DNA from: Microcoleus sp. bin48.metabat.b7b8b9.023
GTDB taxonomy: Bacteria; Cyanobacteriota; Cyanobacteriia; Cyanobacteriales; Microcoleaceae
Reading direction: 5' to 3'
Assembly: GCF_013299185.1 (NCBI RefSeq)
Contig: NZ_JAAFKG010000019.1
Location: 1 to 64,000, forward strand
DNA length: 64,000 bases
The translations under genes and the position numbers were made by a program. The number at the start of each line of letters is the position of its first letter. Position 1 is the stretch's first letter. The notes beneath the pieces were generated by a model, which saw nothing but the letters and a program-made list of their open reading frames with translations, did no database searches and was not told where the DNA came from. Shown here piece by piece: positions 5,095 through 55,311 of this stretch.

Positions 5095-5178
5095 GGAGTT
5101 GTAAAACACAATTATGAGTAATTTATGTTTGCAATAAGGACTAAAGTCCTTACTACAAACGTCACTAATTACTGAAAA

Positions 5179-6728: not shown

Positions 6729-6968
6729 CTATTATATAGCAATCCTAAATCATTTGTGAATTTCTTACTCCCTCCCCTTTATAAGGGGAGGGCTGGGGTG
6801 GGGTAAAAAACTTTACGACTTCTGCAAGGACTGCTATATAGCACTCCTAAATGATTCGCAAACCTCTCTTCGATCAGACTTCGCGCTCTTTGCGTCTTCG
6901 CGGTTCGTAAAAAAATACAACTAACAACTCAAATACAATTGTTATGATAGATAAAAAAGGTAACAGCG
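6729..6968. other. Gap with G/C-rich palindrome, promoter region of the RNA ligase
   Basis: Positions 6768-6808 contain CTCCCTCCCC...GGGGAGGG, a degenerate copy of the family E palindrome found inside uvrC and the NatH-type gene. TATAGCAATCCTAAAT and TATAGCACTCCTAAAT flank it as a direct repeat (6737 and 6836). An AT-rich stretch with TATGATAGATAA precedes the ligase start. No gene seen. Confidence 0.5.
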
Positions 6969-7760
6969 ATGGTCGAAATTGTTAAATATCCTAGAACTTA
7001 TCACATCGAAGGTTCGCGTTTCCAGCCGGGTGATGAAGACCTCAACAGCGTGCCGTTTAGCGCTATTGCCGATCGCCCTTTAATTATCGAAGAAAAGGTA
7101 GACGGCGCCAATACAGGCATCAGCTTCGCGCCAGACGGGCAAATGCTGCTGCAAAGTCGCGGCCACTATCTCACCGGCGGCCCGCGAGAAAAACATTTTA
7201 ACTTGTTCAAACAGTGGGCTTTCAGTCTCAGCGGAGTCCTGGGAGAAGTGCTGGGAAATCGTTATATTTTGTACGGTGAATGGCTTTATGCCAAACATAC
7301 TGTTTTTTATGATTTTCTGCCGCACTATTTTATGGAATACGACGTGCTGGACTTGCAAACAAGTCAGTTTTTGAGTACAGAAGCCCGCCGCCAGTTGTTG
7401 AACGGAGTGCCGTTAGTCTCTGTTCCTGTTCTGTTTTCGGGAGTCGTAAAATCGCCCAAGCACATGATGCAGTTGATGGATAAATCTAATTTTATTCAAC
7501 CCGGACATTTGGATCGGTTGCGCTTGCAGTCTCGGGAATTGGGATTGGATGAAGAGCGGTGTTTGAAGGAGACTGATAATAGCGATCGCATGGAGGGTCT
7601 GTATATTAAAGTCGAAGCAGGTGGAATTGTCAAGGCGCGTTACAAGTACGTGCGCGCTAGCTTTTTGACTGCGATTAAAAATGCGGAGGGACATTGGCTG
7701 AATCGCCCGATTGTACCGAATATTTTGCGTCCCGGCGCTGATTTATTTAATTTTAGATAA
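6969..7760 (+). CDS. RNA ligase (ATP-dependent nucleotidyltransferase family)
   Basis: Covalent nucleotidyltransferase that should join 3'-OH and 5'-phosphate RNA ends through an enzyme-AMP intermediate. Motif I is EEKVDGANTG, with nucleophile Lys43 and Asp45-Gly46. Motif III-like YILYGEWLYAKH (about 97-108), motif IV MEGLYIKVE (about 207-215) and motif V GIVKARYKYVR (about 218-228) are all present in order. At 263 aa it is a minimal catalytic core without a large C-terminal domain. The next gene, 162 bp downstream on the same strand, encodes an HD phosphatase/polynucleotide kinase that would produce exactly the ends this ligase needs. The start ATG follows AAAAGGTAACAGCG, an SD. Confidence 0.88.
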   Translation: MVEIVKYPRTYHIEGSRFQPGDEDLNSVPFSAIADRPLIIEEKVDGANTGISFAPDGQMLLQSRGHYLTGGPREKHFNLFKQWAFSLSGVLGEVLGNRYILYGEWLYAKHTVFYDFLPHYFMEYDVLDLQTSQFLSTEARRQLLNGVPLVSVPVLFSGVVKSPKHMMQLMDKSNFIQPGHLDRLRLQSRELGLDEERCLKETDNSDRMEGLYIKVEAGGIVKARYKYVRASFLTAIKNAEGHWLNRPIVPNILRPGADLFNFR

Positions 7761-7922
7761 GACTCGGCGGTTGAAACCGCTGCTATACAAACAATGTCCG
7801 CCTCCGCGGACTAAGAAATTCAGAAATTTACAGATGAGACTCGGCGGTTGAAACCGCTGCTACACAAACAATGTCCGCCTCCGCGGACGAAGAAATTGCG
7901 TTATTAACAAATAGGTGAAACT
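7761..7922. repeat. Two family C palindromes between ligase and HD-Pnk genes
   Basis: Two near-identical copies (about 7763-7816 and 7842-7895) of the GGCGGTTGAAACCGC / CCGCCTCCGCGG element lie in the 162-bp gap. They could form hairpins in a joint transcript. GGTGAAACT (7913-7921) just before the kinase ATG contains a weak SD. Confidence 0.8.
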
Positions 7923-9074
7923 ATGACTGCTTTATTATCACAATCTGCAACTTGGACTTTTCCATTTTGTCCAGAACCGCCCGATTGGTTCCTAGATTGG
8001 GAGAGCATTTACAATCATTTTGATTGGATTCAAAACTTAGAAGGATGCCAGCAAGATCCGATTTATCACGCTGAAGGTGATGTCTTAATTCACACCAAAA
8101 TGGTCTGCGAAGCCTTAATATCTTCCCCGAATTGGCGGCAGCTTCCGGTGCAAGAACGTTCAATGGTTTTTGCGGCGGCTTTGCTGCACGATGTCGCAAA
8201 ACCTGCTTTTACAAAGATAGAAGAAAATGGCAGAATTAGCTCGAAAGGTCACGCCCGTCAAGGTGCGAGGATGGTCAGACAAATTTTAGCTCAATTTGAC
8301 CCGCCGGTGCAGTTTAGCATTCGGGAGACTGTTTGCGCGATCGTCCAATTCGGCAGTTTACCAATCTGGCTGCTGGAAAAACCCAACCCGCAGCAGTCTG
8401 TAATTAAGGCCAGTCAAGTTGTCCGCTGCGATTTCCTCGCACTTTTAGCAGAAGCAGACGTGCGCGGTCGCGAGTGTAGCGACAGACAAGAAATTCTGGA
8501 TAAAATACAACTATTTCGGGAGTTTTGTCAAGAAAATAATTGTTTGGATTCTCCGCGACAATTCCCGTCAGCCCACAGCCGATTTATCTACTTCCGCAAA
8601 GACAACGGAAACCCCGATTATGAAGCATTTGACGATACTCGATGCGAAGTCGTTTTGATGTCGGGATTGCCCGGAAGCGGTAAGGATTATTGGATAAGAG
8701 AAAATCTACCCAATTGGCCTGTTATTTCCTTGGACGCGCTGCGAAAAGAGATGAACGTTCCTCCCGATGAAACTCCCGGAAATGTCATCGTCGAAGCTAA
8801 ACAGCGAGGGCGGGAATACATGAAATCGGGATGTTCTTTTGTGTGGAATGCCACCAATACGACTAAACAAATGCGCCAGCAATTAATTAATTTCTTTGCT
8901 GATTATCAAGCTAGAATTCGGATTGTTTACCTGGAAGTTCCCTTGGAGGAAATTTTGCGGCGGAATCGATCGCGCGCAGCAGCAGTCCCAGAAGCGGTAA
9001 TTCAACGATTGGCCAATCGCCTGGATATCCCAGATGTCACTGAAGCGAATCAAGTCGATCGATTTGCGGGCTAG
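7923..9074 (+). CDS. HD-domain phosphatase / P-loop polynucleotide kinase (HD-Pnk type end-healing enzyme)
   Basis: Two-domain protein. The N-terminal HD phosphohydrolase region (about 45-220) has LIHTKM (His57) and ALLHDVAKP (His89-Asp90). The C-terminal P-loop kinase (about 241-380) has GLPGSGKDYW (Gly248 to Lys254), an acceptor/lid motif SLDALRKEM (Asp271, Arg274), and NATNTTKQMR (about 313-322). This order matches the characterised Runella HD-Pnk, in which HD removes 2',3'-cyclic or 3' phosphates and the kinase phosphorylates 5'-OH. With the upstream RNA ligase it forms a complete heal-and-seal pair. Domain calls are strong; activity is inferred from the family. Confidence 0.88.
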   Translation: MTALLSQSATWTFPFCPEPPDWFLDWESIYNHFDWIQNLEGCQQDPIYHAEGDVLIHTKMVCEALISSPNWRQLPVQERSMVFAAALLHDVAKPAFTKIEENGRISSKGHARQGARMVRQILAQFDPPVQFSIRETVCAIVQFGSLPIWLLEKPNPQQSVIKASQVVRCDFLALLAEADVRGRECSDRQEILDKIQLFREFCQENNCLDSPRQFPSAHSRFIYFRKDNGNPDYEAFDDTRCEVVLMSGLPGSGKDYWIRENLPNWPVISLDALRKEMNVPPDETPGNVIVEAKQRGREYMKSGCSFVWNATNTTKQMRQQLINFFADYQARIRIVYLEVPLEEILRRNRSRAAAVPEAVIQRLANRLDIPDVTEANQVDRFAG

Positions 9075-9387: not shown

Positions 9388-9594
9388 TTAAGCTTTATAA
9401 TTTTCCTCAGTCCAGCAGCGCGGCAGAACTTCGCCGGAGGGGAAAACTAATTTATCCTTCTCAAAATGTGCCGGATCTTGCTCTTCTTCACCAGCTTGAA
9501 TTCGTCCCGCTACTTGATTTTGGGTAGGGCTGATTAAAGTCTCGATATCGATGATTTCTATCAAGTCGCCGGATTCTTTTTCTTGTAAAAGCAT
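9388..9594 (-). CDS. Small conserved-looking acidic protein, 68 aa
   Basis: Acidic soluble protein (MLLQEKESGDLIEIIDIETL... ...CWTEENYKA) with one cysteine, no membrane segment and no recognised catalytic motif. It is preceded by AAGGAGAAACT, a strong SD 5 nt before the ATG, so the start is well supported. It lies 27 bp downstream of the truncated alcohol dehydrogenase on the same strand and was probably co-transcribed with the full-length version. I do not recognise a functional family. Confidence 0.65.
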   Translation of the reverse strand: MLLQEKESGDLIEIIDIETLISPTQNQVAGRIQAGEEEQDPAHFEKDKLVFPSGEVLPRCWTEENYKA

Positions 9595-9621
9595 AGTTTC
9601 TCCTTGTGAAGTAATGGTGAG

Positions 9622-9958
9622 TTATGGTTTGAGAACAACTTTGATGCAGTTATCTTTTTTGTGTTTGAAAATCTCGTAAGTGTCGGGCGCTTCATCCAAT
9701 TTCATGCGGTGGGTAATCACGAAGGTTGGGTCAATTTCGCCTTTTTGAACGCGATCGAGCAAAGGGCGCAAATAGCGGTGAACGTGTGTCTGTCCCATTT
9801 TCATGGTCAATCCTTTGTTGAACGCTGCACCTAAGGGCACTTTGTCAACAAAGCCGCCGTAAACGCCGGGAATTGACACTGTGCCGCCTTTGCGACAGGC
9901 TTCGTAGTTGATGGTTTTGGCTTTGGCGGTGGCCATTTGCAGGGGTTCGGGTATTCTG
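9622..9958 (-). pseudogene. C-terminal remnant of a zinc-dependent alcohol/formaldehyde dehydrogenase
   Basis: The frame encodes only the last ~110 residues of a medium-chain dehydrogenase: [20 protein letters not shown], then [20 protein letters not shown] and a typical C-terminal [15 protein letters not shown]. The catalytic zinc site, structural zinc cysteines and most of the Rossmann fold are missing; full-length relatives are ~380-400 aa. The open frame starts after an in-frame TAG; an SD-like GAGGAGAA lies directly upstream but is followed by ATACAG, not a start codon. An internal deletion that joined the 5' leader to the 3' third of the gene explains this. An internal ATG at 9936 could allow a 104-aa product, probably non-catalytic. 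Confidence 0.75.
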
Positions 9959-10468
9959 TATTGTGTTCTCCTCTAGTTAACTCCCAGATTTTTGATGCTA
10001 AATCTTAAATTTACTCCGCAGCTAAATCAATTGGCTGTATTGTTTAATTTTAAGGATATAAAATGTGGCAGTTCTCTATCCGAGGTATAATTTTTAAATC
10101 TATCTTTCGGCTGTTTTAAGTTATAAAAAAGGTAGAGTTTATCCCAGCGTAAATTGCAATAGATTTAGGATTATTGTTTTAACAGCTAACAAGGATGGCT
10201 GAGGTTGTTTTTGGCGATCGCCAGTTTGTAGTGCGCCGGGAGTGTCCGCTATAAAGCAGTTTGTAGTGCGTCCTGGTGTCCGCAGGATAAGAACGGACAC
10301 CAGGACGCACTACGAACGGCACGACGAACCATATAACTGCGATCGCATCTTGAGAATCGCGCACCCTGCTTGAGGAGGATTAATCGTCAAAAATTGTATC
10401 ATTAGCTATAACTAAAAGCCGAGCTTGCGCTAAAGTTGTTAAAGATCAAAATTTATCGATCGCCTTTT
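9959..10468. other. Gap upstream of mutS with a perfect 20-bp hairpin
   Basis: Positions 10263-10313 hold a perfect inverted repeat, arms GTAGTGCGTCCTGGTGTCCG and its complement around an 11-nt loop. A decayed copy of one arm lies at 10228-10252. The rest is AT-rich and probably contains the promoters of both flanking genes. A TTG (10436) opens the mutS frame 33 nt before the preferred ATG. Confidence 0.6.
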
Positions 10469-17550: not shown

Positions 17551-17944
17551 ATAAATTTGAGATTTTATGACTTATAGTGGTTCTCAGAAAGATTAGGTAT
17601 GTTGTTGGGATGCGAGCCCCCTTTGTTTAAGGTGTTATGTAAGCTGTCAGTGATACCTCACCTTTTTGATAAAGGCTATATATCTACTATTGTAACGCTG
17701 TTATCTGGGTCAAGCGAATCAATCACAAAAAATAGTTCGTAGTGAGGACTTTAGTCCTCTGATTTTATGCGGACTAAAGTCCTCACTACGAACCTATTAA
17801 TGTTTTTAATGATTGATTTGGTCTTCTGATTGGATGCGGACTAAAGTCCTCACTACGAACCTATTAATGTTTTTAACGATGAGTTTAGTCTTCTGGATGC
17901 GGACTAAAGTCCTCACTACGAACCTATAATGACGTAAGTTCCGT
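17551..17944. repeat. Gap with one family B MITE and three family D palindromes
   Basis: Family B copy at about 17572-17692 (TTATAGTGGTTCTCAGAAAG ... AAAGGCTATATA). Family D hairpins (GTAGTGAGGACTTTAGTCC / GGACTAAAGTCCTCACTAC) occupy about 17730-17793, with further right arms at 17838-17863 and 17899-17924, separated by short TTAATGTTTTTAA(T/C)GAT direct repeats. No gene. Confidence 0.8.
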
Positions 17945-49035: not shown

Positions 49036-49623
49036 TCAAACGAGCCTTTCGTTATTTGTAGAAGATTTGATTAACAGCAAACATCCCCCCTCGGTGATGG
49101 GCGAATGAATGGAACCGGGAACCGATCGAATATAATCGCCTTGATAGCAAACTTCCCCTTCTACAGTTAAGTCTCCTTCTAATACAAATACCTCCTCCGA
49201 GTCCGCGTGTCGGTGCAGGGGAAAAGTTACTCCCGGTTCCAGCCTCATTAAACAAGTAATTTGGTGCTTTTTTTTGTCAAGATAAAGCTTGCCGATCGAG
49301 ATTCCCGGAACTGAGTAGGGTCTCCATTTGACATCGCGCGATCGCACAATTAAAGATGGCGGATTATTTTCTGTGGGCGATGTAACAATTGGTAGTTCGG
49401 CTATGCGCTGCAACAGGCGGTTTTTGAGGTCGGGGGCGACGGGAACGGCAGGGGCTGTATAGGCGATCGCAGAAATTGCTGTTTCAAAGGCAGCTAATTC
49501 GCTTTGAAGTTCTGGGGATGCTTGCAATTTCTCGGCAAGTGCGCTGCGTTCTGACTCATCAAGGGTATCGAGAGCTTTAAGCGCTGCAAGCAGATTAAAC
49601 TCCTCGTCTGGCATCATTTCCAT
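49036..49623 (-). CDS. Cupin-type anti-sigma factor, ChrR-like
   Basis: 195 aa. N-terminal helical sigma-binding region (1-75, EEFNLLAALKALDTLDESER) and a C-terminal ChrR-type cupin (about 95-190) with FPLHRHADSEEVFVLEGDLT and YIRSVPGSIHSPI; His-x-His and Glu form the metal site. The N-terminal region lacks the His/Cys zinc motif of classic ZAS anti-sigmas such as Rhodobacter ChrR, so sigma release may depend on the cupin alone. Lies 140 bp after the ECF sigma gene on the same strand. Expected to sequester that sigma until an oxidant or metal signal. Confidence 0.85.
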   Translation of the reverse strand: MEMMPDEEFNLLAALKALDTLDESERSALAEKLQASPELQSELAAFETAISAIAYTAPAVPVAPDLKNRLLQRIAELPIVTSPTENNPPSLIVRSRDVKWRPYSVPGISIGKLYLDKKKHQITCLMRLEPGVTFPLHRHADSEEVFVLEGDLTVEGEVCYQGDYIRSVPGSIHSPITEGGCLLLIKSSTNNERLV

Positions 49624-49763
49624 CAGTTCTCCGGCATTATCAATTTTAGACTTTAAATTTTAGATTTTCGATTTTTTTTTGCCATTGCACTCAAGATGGA
49701 AGATTGGAGATGCCATAGGTTTAGATCGATATTAAACAATTTAAATTTTGTTTTTTTGACAAT

Positions 49764-50330
49764 CTAAAACTCTTCGCTCAAAGTTTGGCGCAACTTAGAA
49801 ATTCCCAACCGAATTCTAGTTTTAACTGTACCTGTCGGGATACCGAGTTTAGTGCCGATTGCCGCACAAGTCAATCCTTCGTAATAGGCTAGTTCGATCG
49901 CAATTCGCTGTTCTGGTGGCAGTTTTTCTAGGGCTGCGCTGACTTGGGCGCTGCGTTCTTCAAGTATTGCATCTTCCATCGGTTCTGCAATACGCGCAGA
50001 CGGAATTTTAGCATCTTCCAGACAAGCGTCTGCGGCGCGGACTGTTCGCTGCAACACTCGGAGGCGATCGAGGGAACGACTGCGGGTAAGCATAAATAAC
50101 CAAGTATCCGCACGAGAGCGACTGGGATCGTAAGTTGCTGCTTTTTGCCAAATTTGGGAAAAAACATCGAGCACAACTTCCTCAGCTTCTTCTACCGAAC
50201 CCAGAATTTTGTAAGCGAGACCGAAACTTGCACGACCGTAGCGATCGTACAGTTTAGCTAATGCTGCTTGGTCTTTCTGGGCAATCTGCACTAACAGCAG
50301 CGATTCATCACTTAACTTTTCCCCTGTCAT
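49764..50330 (-). CDS. ECF sigma factor (RpoE/SigK-like)
   Basis: 188-aa sigma-70 family factor with only regions 2 and 4. Region 2 at about 22-90 (LYDRYGRASFGLAYKILGSV, WQKAATYDPSRSRADTWLFM) and region 4 at about 130-182 (LEKLPPEQRIAIELAYYEGL, IPTGTVKTRIRLGISKLRQT). The cupin anti-sigma follows it. Divergent from DUF4331 with a ~380-bp gap containing two identical-layout ECF promoters that read toward DUF4331. Assignment to the ChrR-linked ECF group is from the partner gene. Confidence 0.93.
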   Translation of the reverse strand: MTGEKLSDESLLLVQIAQKDQAALAKLYDRYGRASFGLAYKILGSVEEAEEVVLDVFSQIWQKAATYDPSRSRADTWLFMLTRSRSLDRLRVLQRTVRAADACLEDAKIPSARIAEPMEDAILEERSAQVSAALEKLPPEQRIAIELAYYEGLTCAAIGTKLGIPTGTVKTRIRLGISKLRQTLSEEF

Positions 50331-50361
50331 CTCAGTGTACCTGAAAAATTTTGTTTTGAGC

Positions 50362-50393
50362 GTACAGATCCAAAATTAAATATTCGGCGTATA
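50362..50393 (+). promoter_or_regulatory. ECF-type promoter, distal copy
   Basis: GTACAGATCC (-35) and CGTATA (-10) with a 16-bp spacer. Identical boxes and spacer length recur at 50541-50572 while the spacers differ, which is the pattern of selected promoter elements. The GATCC box recalls the TGATCC -35 of ChrR-controlled RpoE in Rhodobacter (family knowledge). Reads toward DUF4331. Confidence 0.6.
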
Positions 50394-50540
50394 TCACTAT
50401 AGAACATAACTGTAAGTCAATTGGGGATGCAAGCATAAGTATGCCTTTGCGGGCTAATTCTGTGATGCTTTGAATTGTAATCTATCCGATTTATATTGCA
50501 GTTTATCACTTCTGCATAGTTTTTCATACCTAATCTTGCT

Positions 50541-50572
50541 GTACAGATCCAAAATAGCCAAAACTTCGTATA
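50541..50572 (+). promoter_or_regulatory. ECF-type promoter, proximal copy
   Basis: GTACAGATCC, 16-bp spacer, CGTATA, followed by a purine about 8 nt on. The expected transcript has a ~135-nt leader before the DUF4331 start, including the 50612-50634 inverted repeat. Confidence 0.62.
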
Positions 50573-50714
50573 CCAATTACGAGAAGGCTCAGCAACCTCC
50601 CAAAAGCCCGACAGGTTAACAAGTTGAACCTGTGGCGACCAAAGTAAAACCCGCGAAGGTGGGTTATTTGCGATTAATTTTTGTAAAAATCTCAGTAAAA
50701 GATAGGTGCTAACT

Positions 50715-51929
50715 GTGAAACTCACCAAGAAAATTCGCCGAATTATCCTAGCAATTGAAGCAGCTTTAATTGTTGTATTAACTCCTGGGATAATTGCCGC
50801 TTCCGACCACGATGACGGCGAAGTCGATATCAAAGGTCGCGCTGTCAATTTAACCGACTTATACGTCTATCGCGAAAAAGATCAAAACTCCGGCGCTGCG
50901 GACGGGGATTTAGTCTTTACAATGAATTCAAATCCTCGGTCTGTAGCCCGCTATCAATATTATTTCAGCACCACAGCCCTTTACCAATTTCACATCACGC
51001 AGGTAGGTGATGTAAATTCTACACCGACTGGACGTGCCGATATTATCTTGCGGTTTGCCTTCAGTCCGCCTAACAGTAAAGGTATGCAAGCGGTAGCGAT
51101 GACTGTTGTGCGCGGCGGCTCCCAGACCACAACTAAGACAACGGTTAATGGCGGTTTAATTGCCACAACTCCGCTGAATTCTAATGCTGTTTTGAATACA
51201 GTACCTGTGGGCGGTTCTAACTTAACTGTATTTGCAGGTTTGCGGGAAGATCCGTTTTTCTTTGATGTGGAACAATTTTTTAGAGTCCGGGCTGGGGCTT
51301 TGGGAACGGGCCCTAAAGTAGGTTTCAAGCCAGCCAGTCAAGCGCTCGACTTTGCTAAAGGCTACAACGTCAATACCATTGCGGTGCGCGTTCCGAAGGC
51401 ATTTCTGCAAGCAGGAACAGGCGCGAATACTTTTGATGTTTGGTCAACTATTTCTGTGAGGGATGGAGCTGGCGGTTTCAAACAATTCGAGCGTTTGGCG
51501 AGACCGGGAATTAATGAGGCGTTGATAGTTACTCCCCAGTTTCTGGAAGCATTTAATACTATTTCTCCGAGATTGGATTTGAGTGCTGCTGCTGCTCCGG
51601 TGCGACAGGAAGCTGTTGCTACTCTCAATGCTGTGGATCTTTTGGACGGTAAGGATAATGTGGATGCAAATGCGATCGCCAAAGCTTTCTTACCGGATGT
51701 CCTGCGGATCGATACCACAAGGCCCAGCGGCTACGGTAGTGCGGCAAATGCTCAAGGAAGTTTGATCGGAGGTCGTTTGCTTTTGGACGATGTTGTTGAT
51801 ATCACTTTGGGAGCTTTGGTGGGTTCTCCGGCTAGCGATAACGTTTCTTATAACGGAGCTCCTGGAAATCCGGCTCAGGGACACAAACCGTTAGAACCGA
51901 ATTTTCCTTATTTGGCTTTGCCGAATTAG
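50715..51929 (+). CDS. DUF4331 family exported protein
   Basis: 404 aa. Hydrophobic N-terminus (MKLTKKIRRIILAIEAALIV) ending in TPGIIAASDHDDGE: a signal peptide with cleavage probably after IIAA, exposing a His/Asp-rich start. The body carries the DUF4331 signatures GRAVNLTDLYVYRE, DLVFTMNSNPRS and RPGINEALI. Beta-rich, extracytoplasmic. GTG at 50715 has AGGTG upstream; GTG at 50706 would add three residues. First gene of a plus-strand group with TPR and NicO/RcnA-like genes, downstream of two ECF promoters. The function of DUF4331 is unknown. Confidence 0.88.
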   Translation: MKLTKKIRRIILAIEAALIVVLTPGIIAASDHDDGEVDIKGRAVNLTDLYVYREKDQNSGAADGDLVFTMNSNPRSVARYQYYFSTTALYQFHITQVGDVNSTPTGRADIILRFAFSPPNSKGMQAVAMTVVRGGSQTTTKTTVNGGLIATTPLNSNAVLNTVPVGGSNLTVFAGLREDPFFFDVEQFFRVRAGALGTGPKVGFKPASQALDFAKGYNVNTIAVRVPKAFLQAGTGANTFDVWSTISVRDGAGGFKQFERLARPGINEALIVTPQFLEAFNTISPRLDLSAAAAPVRQEAVATLNAVDLLDGKDNVDANAIAKAFLPDVLRIDTTRPSGYGSAANAQGSLIGGRLLLDDVVDITLGALVGSPASDNVSYNGAPGNPAQGHKPLEPNFPYLALPN

Positions 51930-52376
51930 TTAATAGTCATAGGTATGTAGTTGCGCTTGGGCGCTCTTTCCTAATATTTATCAAGAGCGCTGAAGTTATT
52001 TGTAGGGTGCGTCGCTATCGATAATACTGAAAAAAAAGCAACAATGTCAGAGCGACGCACCTTCTACAATCACCGAGGAAACGGGAGCATCTCTTTTTTG
52101 CAAATATATTCGTAGGGGCGAAGCATTTCGGCGGTAAATCTCAGATTATGGTTCATAAATTATGTGCCGAAATGCTTCCTTCGCCCTTGCCACAATTAGA
52201 TGCACCCGAGAAAACTAACCTAACAATAGGTACGTTGTTGCGCTGTCTTCGCTCTTTCCTAATATTTATAAAGAGCGCTGAAGCGCAACAACGTACCTTG
52301 GCTCAAGCATGAGCCGACCTTATCAAATAAAATCGTAGTTTTTCGTGCTAAATCCAATAATGACGCACCCTACAAT
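51930..52376. repeat. Gap with families A and H palindromes
   Basis: 51940-51995 is a truncated family A copy. 51999-52068 is family H (GTAGGGTGCGTCGCTATC ... AGAGCGACGCACCTTCTAC). 52109-52185 is an inverted repeat (TAGGGGCGAAGCATTTCGGC ... GCCGAAATGCTTCCTTCGCC). 52230-52300 is a complete family A hairpin. 52358-52375 is a family H end that runs up to the TPR start codon. No gene. Confidence 0.75.
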
Positions 52377-53777
52377 ATGACTGCCAACAAATCACAAAAA
52401 CCTAAATCCGATCTTTTCTGGTGGTTGCTTCTCATCGGACTGCCGATAGTGGGAATTGTCGCAGTTAATTTGCTGCCCAATCTGCGTGAAATCTCAGGAA
52501 AAATTGCTAATAAAAGTACGGCAAATCTCGATGCTAATTACCGCTATCAGTTTTCGGAAACTTTGAGGAACAATCCGAATCAAAAGGAAGCTATTCAGCA
52601 GGAAATTGCTTTTTACCAGCAGCGATTGGCTGTTGATTCAAAAAGCGGTTTGAATCGGGCTGCTTTGGCGAGTGCTTATTTGAAAATGGCTCGCGTAACT
52701 GGGGAAGGTGGTTGGTTTTTATTAGCCGAACAAGCCGCAGAAAGATCGATCGCCCTTTTGCCTTTTGACAACAAAGGCGCGCTGCTAGTTTTAGCTCGAA
52801 TTGCCGAGGCCAGACACGATTTTGCGACGGCTTTGCGCTTGGCGAAACAGGTGGGTTTTGACAATGAAGATGCGATCGCCCTTTCCGTCACATCTCACTT
52901 AGCCACCGGAAAAATCGGTGAGGCAAGTATAGCCGCAGAAGCCTTAGTTAATCGGATTCCTAACTTAGGTTCTCTCACATTAAGAGCGTTAGTGAGAGAA
53001 TCGCAGGGGCGAGACGCGGAGGTTTTGCAGGATTACCGGCAAGCAATGGCTGCGGAGGAACCGGGAGAGATTGCTGGATCGGCGCGAGTTCGATCGCTCT
53101 TGGGTCGATTTTACGCCCGCCGCGGGCAGTTTGTGCAGGCGAAAGCGCTATTTTTGGAAGCGTTGCGGTTGGTTCCGCGATACCCGCTAGCGCTGATTTA
53201 TTTGGCGGATTTGGAGACGCGCCAGGGAAATTATCGGGAAGCTGAGGCTAATTACAGCAAGGTTTCTGCCTATTCTGGCGGGGCTGCGACGGTGTTCGAT
53301 CGCCTGGTGGATCGCGGTATGGCGAGGGTGAAGGAGTTGCAGGGAGATGCGAGATCCTCGGGGAGACTGCGCGACAAAGCAGAAGCTGGGCTGCGACAGG
53401 AACAGGTTTCTGGCGGTTTCGGGCACCGGCGCGATTTGGCGAGTTTGTTGCTGGAAAAAGGTCGATCGCAGGATGTCGCCGAAGCGCTGTTGTTAATGCA
53501 GGAAGAGGTGAAAATTCGCAGGGATGCGGTGACTCTGGATATTTACGCCTGGGCGCTTTCTAGTGCTGGCGAATGGCAAAAAGCCGATCGGGTGATGGTT
53601 GAAATTGTGCGATCGGGAATTCGCGATGCTGGGATGTTTTATCGGGCTGGTGCGATCGCTAAGACTTTAGGAAAAGATGCCGAATCTCGCGCTTATTTTC
53701 AAAAGGTGAAGGAAATCGATCCGAGTTTTGATAGTCGATCTCGTCAAGCATTGGGTTTGGGAAGTTATGAATTTTGA
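52377..53777 (+). CDS. Membrane-anchored TPR protein
   Basis: 466 aa. One N-terminal helix (LFWWLLLIGLPIVGIVAVNL, about 13-32) then a periplasm- or lumen-facing superhelix with about seven TPR-like units between residues 70 and 455 (for example ALASAYLKMARVTGEGGWFL, FVQAKALFLEALRLVPRYPL, YREAEANYSKVSAYSGGAA, AESRAYFQKVKEIDPSFDSR). It overlaps the next frame by 11 bp, indicating translational coupling to the NicO/RcnA-like transporter. Probably scaffolds DUF4331 and/or the transporter; that is inference from the operon. Confidence 0.85.
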   Translation: MTANKSQKPKSDLFWWLLLIGLPIVGIVAVNLLPNLREISGKIANKSTANLDANYRYQFSETLRNNPNQKEAIQQEIAFYQQRLAVDSKSGLNRAALASAYLKMARVTGEGGWFLLAEQAAERSIALLPFDNKGALLVLARIAEARHDFATALRLAKQVGFDNEDAIALSVTSHLATGKIGEASIAAEALVNRIPNLGSLTLRALVRESQGRDAEVLQDYRQAMAAEEPGEIAGSARVRSLLGRFYARRGQFVQAKALFLEALRLVPRYPLALIYLADLETRQGNYREAEANYSKVSAYSGGAATVFDRLVDRGMARVKELQGDARSSGRLRDKAEAGLRQEQVSGGFGHRRDLASLLLEKGRSQDVAEALLLMQEEVKIRRDAVTLDIYAWALSSAGEWQKADRVMVEIVRSGIRDAGMFYRAGAIAKTLGKDAESRAYFQKVKEIDPSFDSRSRQALGLGSYEF

Positions 53778-55311
53778 AATTAGCCACAAACACATCAAAT
53801 TAAAACCAACCATGCACAAAAACTGGCAAAAAATGCGAAAATATTTAATTCTTTTTTCGCTCACAATCTTACTATTTTGTACAAACTCAACCCAACCAGT
53901 TTATTCCCACTGGTCAGACTTATCAGTAGCCGAAATCATCGTCAACGATTTGCAAACCGAAATAACATTAACCTTTCCCACCGGCCTAACAAAATTTGCC
54001 GACGACAATGGAGACGGACAGTTACAACTGGCAGAAGTTAGGAATCACAAAACAGAACTAGAAAAGTTTTTTAGTCAAGAAATTAGCATCACCAAAAGTA
54101 GCAAGATTCCCGGATCGGTTACAGTAAAACCCCTGGAAATAGCTAAGAGTGCCAGCTCGATCCAGCAGCCCAATACCCATAGCACCTTAATCTTAAACTA
54201 CACCTGGCCAGAATCTAGCGTAACTTCAAAAAACAACAAAATGCGGATTAAATACAATTTATTTTTGCCCGGAGTTCCGACAGCTAGCTGTCAAGCTACA
54301 ATTGTCGAAGCTGGTGCTGTCAAAAGCATTGTATTTACGCCACACAACCGAGAATTTTTGTTAGCTGGAAAAGAATCAATCTGGGAGTCAGGTTGGAGTT
54401 TTGTGCTAGCAGTAGTCGGAGCATTTACTTGGGGATGCGTGCACGCGATGTCACCCGGACATGGGAAAACCATAGTCGGCGCTTATTTAGTTGGTTCGCG
54501 GGCTACTCCAGTACACGCTGTATTTCTAGCAGCAACAACTACAATTACTCACACTGCTGGCGTGTTTGCTGTAGGCGCAATTACATTATTTGCTTCTAAC
54601 ATAATCGAGCCAGAAAAACTCGATCCTTGGCTGAGTTTAATCTCAGGCTTATTAGTAGCAATCATCGGCATCAAACTACTTTCAGAAAGAATCAAAACCA
54701 GGTTCGTAGTGAGGACTTTAGTCCGCAAAACCAGGTTCGTAGTGAGGACTTTAGTCCGCAAAACCAGGTTCGTAGTGAGGACTTTAGTCCGCAAAAACCC
54801 AAGGACTAAAGTCCTTACTACGAACCTTGAGGAACCAGTAAATCTTTTGAGTAGGGGAACTTGGGAAAGAGAATTTAAACCTGTCAAACCACCTATATCT
54901 CAGCACTACCACCATCATGGAGACGGCCGCCTTCATTCACATTTGCCACCAGGATCTGACGGTTCTCCGATTACTTGGAAAAGCTTGTTAGTGTTGGGCA
55001 TTTCCGGGGGATTGTTGCCTTGTCCTTCCGCATTGGTGATGCTGTTGAGCGCGTCGGCTTTGGGCAATGTTGGTCTGGGGATGACGCTCGTGGTAGCCTT
55101 TAGTTTGGGATTGGCTTTGGTGCTGAGTGCGATCGGCTTAATCTTAGTTTATGCCAAACGGAATTTTGATAGACTGCCGAAACAGATTGCAGCAGTCAAA
55201 TTTATGCCTGCAATTAGCGCGGTGGTGGTAATGTTTTTGGGGCTGGGCATTACCGGAGAGGCTATTCTAAAAATATTGGCTGCGAATCAGTGGGTAATTG
55301 GCAATGGATAA
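53767..55311 (+). CDS. NicO/RcnA-like nickel-cobalt transporter with in-frame repeat insertion
   Basis: About 514 aa. A hydrophobic signal helix (KYLILFSLTILLFCT), an extracytoplasmic domain with an EF-hand-like DDNGDGQLQLAEV, then a polytopic domain with HAMSPGHGKTIVGAYLVGSR, the hallmark of RcnA/NicO proteins, a His-rich loop ISQHYHHHGDGRLHSHLPP, and GGLLPCPSALVMLLSASALG. RcnA members export Ni/Co. Residues ~310-355 (KTRFVVRTLVR three times, then NPRTKVLTTN) are translated from family D repeats inserted before the His-rich loop. Start 53767 overlaps the TPR gene by 11 bp; ATG 53812 or 53834 are alternatives. Confidence 0.88.
   Translation: MNFEISHKHIKLKPTMHKNWQKMRKYLILFSLTILLFCTNSTQPVYSHWSDLSVAEIIVNDLQTEITLTFPTGLTKFADDNGDGQLQLAEVRNHKTELEKFFSQEISITKSSKIPGSVTVKPLEIAKSASSIQQPNTHSTLILNYTWPESSVTSKNNKMRIKYNLFLPGVPTASCQATIVEAGAVKSIVFTPHNREFLLAGKESIWESGWSFVLAVVGAFTWGCVHAMSPGHGKTIVGAYLVGSRATPVHAVFLAATTTITHTAGVFAVGAITLFASNIIEPEKLDPWLSLISGLLVAIIGIKLLSERIKTRFVVRTLVRKTRFVVRTLVRKTRFVVRTLVRKNPRTKVLTTNLEEPVNLLSRGTWEREFKPVKPPISQHYHHHGDGRLHSHLPPGSDGSPITWKSLLVLGISGGLLPCPSALVMLLSASALGNVGLGMTLVVAFSLGLALVLSAIGLILVYAKRNFDRLPKQIAAVKFMPAISAVVVMFLGLGITGEAILKILAANQWVIGNG
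54694..54828. repeat. Three tandem family D units plus one inverted unit inside the NicO gene
   Basis: Direct 33-bp units at 54694, 54727 and 54760 (AAAACCAGGTTCGTAGTGAG + GACTTTAGTCCGC), identical, followed by an inverted unit at 54801-54827 (AAGGACTAAAGTCCTTACTA). The 33-bp period keeps frame. Confidence 0.92.

Follow-up and report, generated by a model that had tools for sequence, protein, structure and literature searches.

The region 49036-55311 of a 64,000-nucleotide stretch of DNA from Microcoleus sp. bin48.metabat.b7b8b9.023 (contig NZ_JAAFKG010000019.1, positions 1 to 64,000; hereafter the window) raises the question of which genes are served by an extracytoplasmic function (ECF) sigma factor that is encoded next to a cupin anti-sigma factor and divergently from genes for a DUF4331 protein, a tetratricopeptide repeat (TPR) protein and a NicO-type transporter. 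Comparison with relatives of this cyanobacterium, whose genome amounts to 7.5 Mb, links the sigma/anti-sigma pair to a two-box motif that lies upstream of DUF4331 and whose reading as a promoter is strongly supported. Taken as a whole, the account favoured here, in which a ChrR-like sigma circuit would drive a DUF4331-TPR-NicO set that handles metal in the envelope, has in our estimate a probability of ca. 0.6.

The five genes that an earlier note on this DNA had reported were all recovered as translated reading frames with Pfam matches. They are listed here with the associated sites (positions in the window).

49036..49623, minus strand: anti-sigma factor of 195 aa (Pfam Cupin_7, E 4.5e-21)
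49764..50330, minus strand: ECF sigma factor of 188 aa (Sigma70_r2 and Sigma70_r4 matches)
50362..50393, plus strand: promoter-like site 1, GTACAGATCC at 50362-50371 and CGTATA at 50388-50393, with GATCC at 37 bases from the start codon of the sigma gene, reading towards DUF4331
50541..50572, plus strand: promoter-like site 2, GTACAGATCC at 50541-50550 and CGTATA at 50567-50572, reading towards DUF4331
50706 or 50715 to 51929, plus strand: DUF4331 exported protein (PF14224, E 1.2e-58)
51930..52376, no strand: gap of 447 bases with nested palindromic repeats, which fill 51941-52375
52377..53777, plus strand: TPR protein (TPR models), with an N-terminal membrane anchor recognised by eye
53812..55311, plus strand: NicO/RcnA-like membrane transporter (PF03824), with a corrected start set by comparison with relatives

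A two-box motif upstream of DUF4331 in the window and in the genus

Both sites of the divergent gap share the form A-GATCC-N16-CGTATA, with identical boxes and different spacer letters, and they occur exactly where the earlier note had placed them, on the plus strand, with a 16-base spacer and directed towards DUF4331. In the window, GATCC-N(15-18)-CGTATA has two matches versus 0.05 expected, a number that none of 100 shuffles reached. A housekeeping promoter for the sigma gene, looked for at site 1, was not among the consensus hits.

The genus set corresponds to 29 genomes (record names: Microcoleus and allies), and the relatives with a DUF4331 identity of 85-94% are labelled Microcoleus, Tychonema, Lyngbya, Oscillatoriales and similar; genomes and loci are designated below by G and L numbers, respectively. 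In this set, GATCCAAA-N(12-14)-CGTATA occurs 70 times, in 28 of the 29 genomes, versus no occurrence of the reversed control pattern. Fifty-five of these occurrences are the two sites of the DUF4331 locus (two in 27 genomes and one in G009), 14 are found before a gene encoding an RTX/DUF4394 protein (see below) and one lies elsewhere. When the genus loci are aligned, site 1 is kept in 28/28 and site 2 is found with the strict motif in 27/28; in L191, site 1 alone is retained and lies 1.2 kb from DUF4331, which explains why the 600 bases before this gene hold no site. The sigma gene itself is present in 27 of the 29 genomes (E 1e-20) and, in G026, it is cut off because only 66 bases of the contig precede site 1. 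In L055 (G015, 9414-9976) the sigma gene is split over two frames, by either a real frameshift or an assembly error.

The remaining genome of interest, G021, has lost the sigma gene, the exact motif, TPR and NicO, and retains pieces of the anti-sigma and DUF4331 genes; in L127 (G021, 6808-7522) the anti-sigma piece directly adjoins the 3' part of DUF4331, which lies on the other strand. These remains mark G021 as a case of natural loss. Since synteny in the genus extends to the flanking genes (CBS, DUF6918 and others), linkage within it carries little weight as evidence, and the test was made outside the genus.

Linkage of the motif and the sigma/anti-sigma pair outside the genus

The 80 named DUF4331 loci are the best 80 of 213 relatives obtained from a scan of genome contigs; 24 are of the genus type, with a DUF4331 identity of at least 80%, and 56 lie outside the genus. 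Among the latter, AGATCC-N16-CGTAT is found within 600 bases upstream of DUF4331 in all 22 loci with the pair in the fetched stretch versus 5 of the 34 without it (Fisher P 3.8e-11). The association persists when only loci with at least 1.5 kb upstream are counted (22/22 versus 5/31, P 2.1e-10) and when loci are merged at 90% (17/17 versus 4/25, P 4.7e-8) or 80% DUF4331 identity (9/9 versus 3/18, P 4.7e-5), a merged cluster being scored as having the pair or the motif if any member does. Merging at 70% (P 0.018) says little because most loci then fall into two mixed clusters. In the 22 pair loci, no site with another spacer length (10-22 tested) or on the opposite strand was detected.

The boxes in this comparison were fixed by the search pattern; an A stands two bases before AGATCC in all 24 sites, the letters behind CGTAT are conserved too and most spacer letters are not. 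Loci linked by a DUF4331 identity of at least 80% differ in pair and motif together, both being absent from L212, L214, L215 and L239 and present in L213, L217, L218, L221, L223, L226 and L228. Comparison of genomes thus ties sigma pair, motif and candidate target genes to one another, and fixes the form and direction of the putative promoter.

Two checks had been proposed by the earlier note, namely whether relatives conserve the boxes and whether DUF4331, TPR and NicO co-occur with the sigma gene. The motif is present in 28/29 genus genomes and 22/22 outside-genus pair loci, and sigma, TPR and NicO disappeared together from G021, so that both came out in its favour. Its proposal that the sigma factor with the cupin anti-sigma has DUF4331-TPR-NicO as likely target is supported by the linkage of motif and pair.

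The anti-sigma and sigma factors and their likeness to known systems

Alignments and an AlphaFold model indicate that the predicted anti-sigma factor is composed of a zinc-less helical sigma-binding domain and of a metal-binding ChrR-type cupin. The cupin ligands H137, H139, E143 and H173 are invariant in an alignment of 35 sequences, and the HxH...E...H pattern recurs in 34/35 homologues of a second, outside-genus set, the other one being cut by a contig end. As the earlier note had claimed, the N-terminal zinc motif is lacking: HxxxCxxC occurs in 0/35 outside-genus homologues, and the first 90 residues of the window protein contain no His or Cys. The best PDB sequence match is 3o14, deposited as ChrR (cupin part). 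The model (pLDDT 87.4, pTM 0.57), in which helices are followed by the cupin, best matches ChrR of the SigE complex 2q1z over both domains (Foldseek E 3e-10), with an rmsd of 16-17 that presumably reflects domain placement. The cut-off of the ChrR model TIGR02451 is not reached (37.8 versus 124.5 bits) and a weak RskA_N match occurs (E 0.005). No transmembrane stretch was seen by eye in the anti-sigma factor, which is probably cytoplasmic.

For the sigma factor, the closest solved relative is Rhodobacter sphaeroides SigE (2q1z_A, E 1e-24), followed by SigK (E 1.7e-21), and no ECF group was assigned beyond likeness to ECF11. In a midpoint-rooted tree of 40 sigma factors, those linked to a cupin form one clade with a support of 100/100; five cyanobacterial paralogs fall outside it, and the three whose neighbours were looked at have RskA-like ones by eye. 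Inside the clade, on the long branch of L186, the anti-sigma lacks a cupin and, by eye, carries HxxxCxxC. A second cupin anti-sigma gene was observed in L182 (G111), with no intact sigma frame found beside it.

The following comparisons rest on the available parts of the papers cited. SigE-ChrR of R. sphaeroides belongs to ECF11 and the metal ligands of the ChrR cupin are H141, H143, E147 and H177 (PMC6852236). The arrangement found here likewise consists of a sigma gene adjoining that of a two-domain cupin anti-sigma with ligands HxH-x3-E...H, and differs in that the sigma-binding domain has no zinc HHCC (ZAS) site; zinc-less sigma-binding domains have already been described (PMC7406223). Both this precedent and the retention of the ChrR ligands by the sensing cupin bear on the suggestion of the earlier note that the trigger could be new. 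The promoter form published for ChrR-paired sigma factors is TGATCC-N16-CGTA in Pseudomonas syringae, in which the phrB promoter starts with A instead of T (PMC5507510), and TGATCC with CGTATT or CGTAAT, with mapped starts, in Shewanella (PMC4336711). The putative promoter described here has the ChrR-paired form TGATCC-N16-CGTA, with the first T replaced by A.

In both Pseudomonas (PMC5507510) and Shewanella (PMC4336711) such a promoter also precedes the sigma gene, which is thereby autoregulated. In contrast, 0/26 genus loci have a sigma-ward [AT]GATC[CT]-N16-CGTA within 700 bases of the sigma gene. Outside the genus, such sites occur in two of 31 pair loci, L228 (-586) and L249 (-615), and that of L228 fits a SnoaL-like gene located 32 bases behind it. 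By analogy, the circuit may work like the ChrR system, from which it departs at the zinc site, in the promoter before the sigma gene and in its candidate targets, which are DUF4331-TPR-NicO and RTX/DUF4394 here and probably ferritin-like genes elsewhere.

The SigK-RskA system shares the zinc-less N-terminal anti-sigma domain, and the SigK subfamily ranks second, below cut-off, among the NCBIfam models matched by the sigma factor. It differs in that its anti-sigma spans the membrane, whereas here a cupin follows and no membrane helix is seen by eye; in addition, the paralogous sigma factors with RskA-like neighbours are those placed outside the cupin-linked clade. The word cupin is absent from the available part of a paper on cyanobacterial sigma factors (PMC11119718).

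The DUF4331-TPR-NicO gene set

DUF4331 matches PF14224 with 199.7 bits (cut-off 27), and the set is conserved beyond the genus. TPR is found behind DUF4331 on the same strand in 61/62 loci with at least 5 kb downstream (47/48 outside the genus), and NicO in 51/55 loci with at least 7 kb downstream (37/41 outside the genus). Of 292 genomes drawn evenly from the phylum, 16 contained DUF4331; 11 of these lie outside the genus, with TPR near DUF4331 in 11/11 and NicO in 9/11. Individual loci with other arrangements are L131, in which the contig ends behind TPR, L130, in which it ends 0.9 kb behind TPR with an opposite-strand reading frame there, and L133, in which the gene order is TPR-NicO-DUF4331.

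The DUF4331 domain of the window begins at the Ser of SDHDD (codon 50802), after a hydrophobic, signal-like stretch. SDHDD occurs in 80/80 named loci, preceded by Ala in 73, Ser in 5 and Thr in 2. As one of the two scan seeds contained ASDH, unbiased evidence is limited to the 30 loci that this seed does not match, and SDHDD is present in 30/30 of them. In the phylum draw, which relied on the whole protein, SDH was found in 10/11 outside-genus cassettes, the start of the eleventh having not been read. An amino-terminal Cu(II)- and Ni(II)-binding (ATCUN) site consists of X-X-His at a free N-terminus; if cleavage takes place at the inferred site, the mature DUF4331 protein would begin with Ser-Asp-His and thus carry an ATCUN-type Cu/Ni site. 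Because of this putative start and of the neighbouring NicO-type transporter with its His-rich loop, envelope handling of Ni, Co or Cu would be the most economical guess.

The NicO protein resembles RcnA/NicO exporters in its Pfam match, in the stretches HAMSPGHGK and GGLLPCPS, which we take to be NicO/RcnA-type motifs, and in the His-rich loop seen by eye. In contrast to RcnA, it scores below the cut-off of the NCBIfam nickel/cobalt efflux model NF007454 (89.3 versus 195 bits), possesses an N-terminal domain before the PF03824 match and sits with DUF4331 and TPR; a search for solved relatives gave none, apart from a chance row at E 0.57. Both kinds of segment described by the earlier note, EF-hand-like and His-rich, were seen by eye, the former being not invariant: a narrow EF-hand pattern occurs in 18 of the 43 named loci with the NicO motif, itself found in 43/80 loci.

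Two start codons were reconsidered. The first codon of DUF4331, GTG at 50706 in the window, is GTA in 3/13 listed genus loci, so that the start is probably the GTG at 50715, nine bases further in. The extra N-terminal stretch of NicO holds a stop in one relative (L039), and in three others (L045, L050 and L053) the match starts at a Met aligned with ATG 53812. With this start, TPR and NicO are separated by 34 bases, and the 11-base overlap of the earlier note depended on the start chosen. A dispersed repeat (GTAGTGAGGACTTTAGTC family) occurs in frame inside the NicO gene at 54706-54838, as three tandem copies and one inverted, with further copies near 5156, 17739-17919 and 61881 of the window.

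On the plus strand of the 447-base gap between DUF4331 and TPR no terminator-like site was found. As TPR is located this far behind DUF4331, across palindromic repeats, we infer co-transcription of DUF4331-TPR-NicO as an operon from the conserved gene order.

Second, divergent DUF4331 genes were observed in L140 (G027, 7547-8590), without SDHDD and by eye without a signal peptide, and in L139 (G111, 7624-8592); no TPR or NicO matches were found near either.

Other candidate targets

In the genus, the second candidate target is a gene unlinked to the sigma locus, whose product has RTX repeats and two DUF4394 domains. The 14 genus sites mentioned above lie 47 to 325 bases before its reading frame. 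All of the 17 genomes with a near full-length gene carry AGATCCAA-N14-CGTAT upstream, G024 has a gene fragment only and no site, and the strict motif search detected no third site in the 11 genus genomes without an RTX/DUF4394 match. In L099 (3943-3969), the site before this gene shares spacer letters and letters behind CGTATA with site 1 (50367-50393), as if copied. The earlier note's description of the system as self-contained is thus not supported in that form, given the same putative promoter before an unlinked gene and the 34/56 outside-genus DUF4331 loci without the pair in the fetched stretch.

A one-mismatch regulon search in the genus gave counts per genome near those of the reversed control (for G000, at least 10 versus at least 7 among the matches listed), and only exact motifs were used further. 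The exact sites it added, among the matches listed, were three at the RTX/DUF4394 gene, one at G002:C180, inside another coding frame, and one at G007:C131. The latter (L320, G007:C131:76720-76746) is an exact AGATCCAA-N14-CGTAT followed, at a distance of 40 bases, by a small cupin gene; it was seen in this single genome.

In other lineages, a ferritin-like gene adjoins the pair in five loci, with a Ferritin_2 match in the four scanned (L141, L177, L183 and L185) and by resemblance in L184. It is preceded by GATC[CT]-N16-CGTATT in L141, L177 and L185 and, by eye only, by AATCC-N16-CGTATT in L183 and L184. Among the 13 unlinked outside-genus sites (see below), four are in a promoter-like place: 32 bases before a SnoaL-like gene in one Calothrix and one Nostoc genome, 31 bases before an AMP-ligase-like gene (named by eye) in another Nostoc and 314 bases before a ferritin-like gene in G436. 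As the reversed control gave a similar count (25 versus 18), these four are leads only. Gene context suggests that the same promoter-sigma-anti-sigma code may have been attached to different target genes by lineage.

Possible feedback on the anti-sigma gene

In seven of 31 outside-genus pair loci, the gap that precedes the anti-sigma gene holds an exact-spacer site. In these loci (L250, L251, L255, L256, L257, L259 and L238, several of which are close relatives), AGATC[CT]-N16-CGTA is located behind the sigma gene and just before the anti-sigma gene only. Four more (L177, L179, L180 and L265) have an exact-spacer, promoter-like site inside the sigma coding region, in its linker part, reading towards the anti-sigma gene. 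Synonymous shuffles reached the intragenic score in 5, 0 and 1 of 300 cases for three of these (G347, G377 and G066, respectively), and no site with another spacer (10-22) or on the antisense strand was found in the sigma coding region of the 31 loci. The 26 genus loci have neither kind of site, be it within the sigma gene or ahead of the anti-sigma gene. A candidate in the sigma gene of the window (GATGC-N16-CGTATT) was discarded, 69 of 300 synonymous shuffles scoring as high. These sites provide a lead for a putative feedback on the brake only, in lineages other than the genus.

Proposed circuit and alternative explanations

In the circuit that we favour, a ChrR-like anti-sigma, with its zinc-less domain and metal-binding cupin, would hold an ECF sigma factor akin to those paired with ChrR. 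The cupin would read a signal, most likely a photo-oxidative or metal change, and free the sigma factor, which would then direct RNA polymerase to AGATCC-N16-CGTATA promoters, with a tandem pair upstream of DUF4331-TPR-NicO and, within the genus, a single one upstream of the unlinked RTX/DUF4394 gene. The resulting envelope products would most likely handle and export a transition metal (Ni, Co or Cu), the secreted DUF4331 protein binding it via its Ser-Asp-His N-terminus and the NicO protein moving it.

Several observations weigh against this reading. As the best 80 of 213, retrieved in part through a seed that contained ASDH, the named loci do not form an even sample, and their SDH count is biased. 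In five loci the motif occurs without a complete pair in the fetched stretch and, since 34/56 outside-genus DUF4331 loci have no pair in theirs, the cassette must be under other control too. In seven searched genomes without the pair at DUF4331, four have no match to the cupin anti-sigma (E 1e-15), one has a partial match (residues 4-84) and two, G434 and G435, encode a cupin anti-sigma at another place while the strict motif is missing from the whole genome; the DUF4331 cassette is therefore not bound to this sigma factor. In 15 outside-genus genomes, AGATCC-N16-CGTAT has 25 sites versus 18 for the reversed control, 10 of them before DUF4331, two before the anti-sigma gene and 13 others that are within chance by number, so that an isolated site outside the locus says little. 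NCBIfam ranks PRK12519 and then the SigK subfamily for the sigma factor, both below cut-off, which leaves its assignment to an ECF group tentative. As to function, the model of DUF4331 is of low confidence (pLDDT 65) and has no PDB match at E 0.001 or better, and the NicO family includes importers as well as exporters, the direction of transport being one that cannot be read from sequence.

The alternative that survives best, and that deserves to be kept as a real if lesser possibility, retains the same sigma circuit and assigns its regulon to photo-oxidative (singlet oxygen or peroxide) envelope defence, metal movement by NicO being a by-product or concerning another substrate. The likeness of promoter, anti-sigma architecture and cupin ligands to the proteobacterial ChrR systems fits this explanation, as does the occurrence, in five loci from other lineages, of ferritin-like genes next to the pair. 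However, photolyase and glutathione peroxidase, which are targets in the available parts of PMC5507510 and PMC4336711, were both absent behind the exact genus sites examined.

That the motif is an operator for another regulator encoded nearby, with the sigma factor as a bystander, is highly unlikely: in its favour, site 1 is located 36-37 bases from the sigma start and reads away from the sigma gene, yet two boxes at a fixed distance and in one orientation equal the published promoters of ChrR-paired sigma factors, track the sigma and anti-sigma genes across lineages and also precede ferritin-like neighbours of the pair. That shared ancestry of the neighbourhoods, rather than selection, keeps motif and genes together is hardly credible, as the syntenic flanks of the genus speak for it whereas, outside the genus, spacers differ and are less conserved than the boxes, and loci linked at 80% DUF4331 identity or more change pair and motif together.

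Significance

The putative RTX/DUF4394 promoter, the sites before the anti-sigma gene only, the ferritin-like neighbours and the Ser-Asp-His at the predicted mature start of DUF4331 are new here; a literature search under DUF4331 (alone or with ECF sigma) or under DUF4394 with sigma factor found nothing. A more far-reaching account, which we regard as speculative and rather doubtful, is that a cyanobacterial ChrR-type circuit has been rewired from photo-oxidative repair to envelope metal control. In this account the cupin would read a metal or redox state, and the sigma factor would turn on an ATCUN-bearing DUF4331 protein together with a NicO exporter and a TPR scaffold. Several lineages, the genus not among them, would add sigma feedback that acts only on its own brake, via a promoter located within the sigma gene or in the short gap ahead of the anti-sigma gene, with no sigma self-activation. 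For the favoured circuit, these data would extend the proteobacterial promoter-sigma-anti-sigma code to cyanobacteria. The DUF4331 family thereby gains a candidate regulator, partner genes and a testable chemistry, and exact positions of the putative promoters are now available for the DUF4331 locus.

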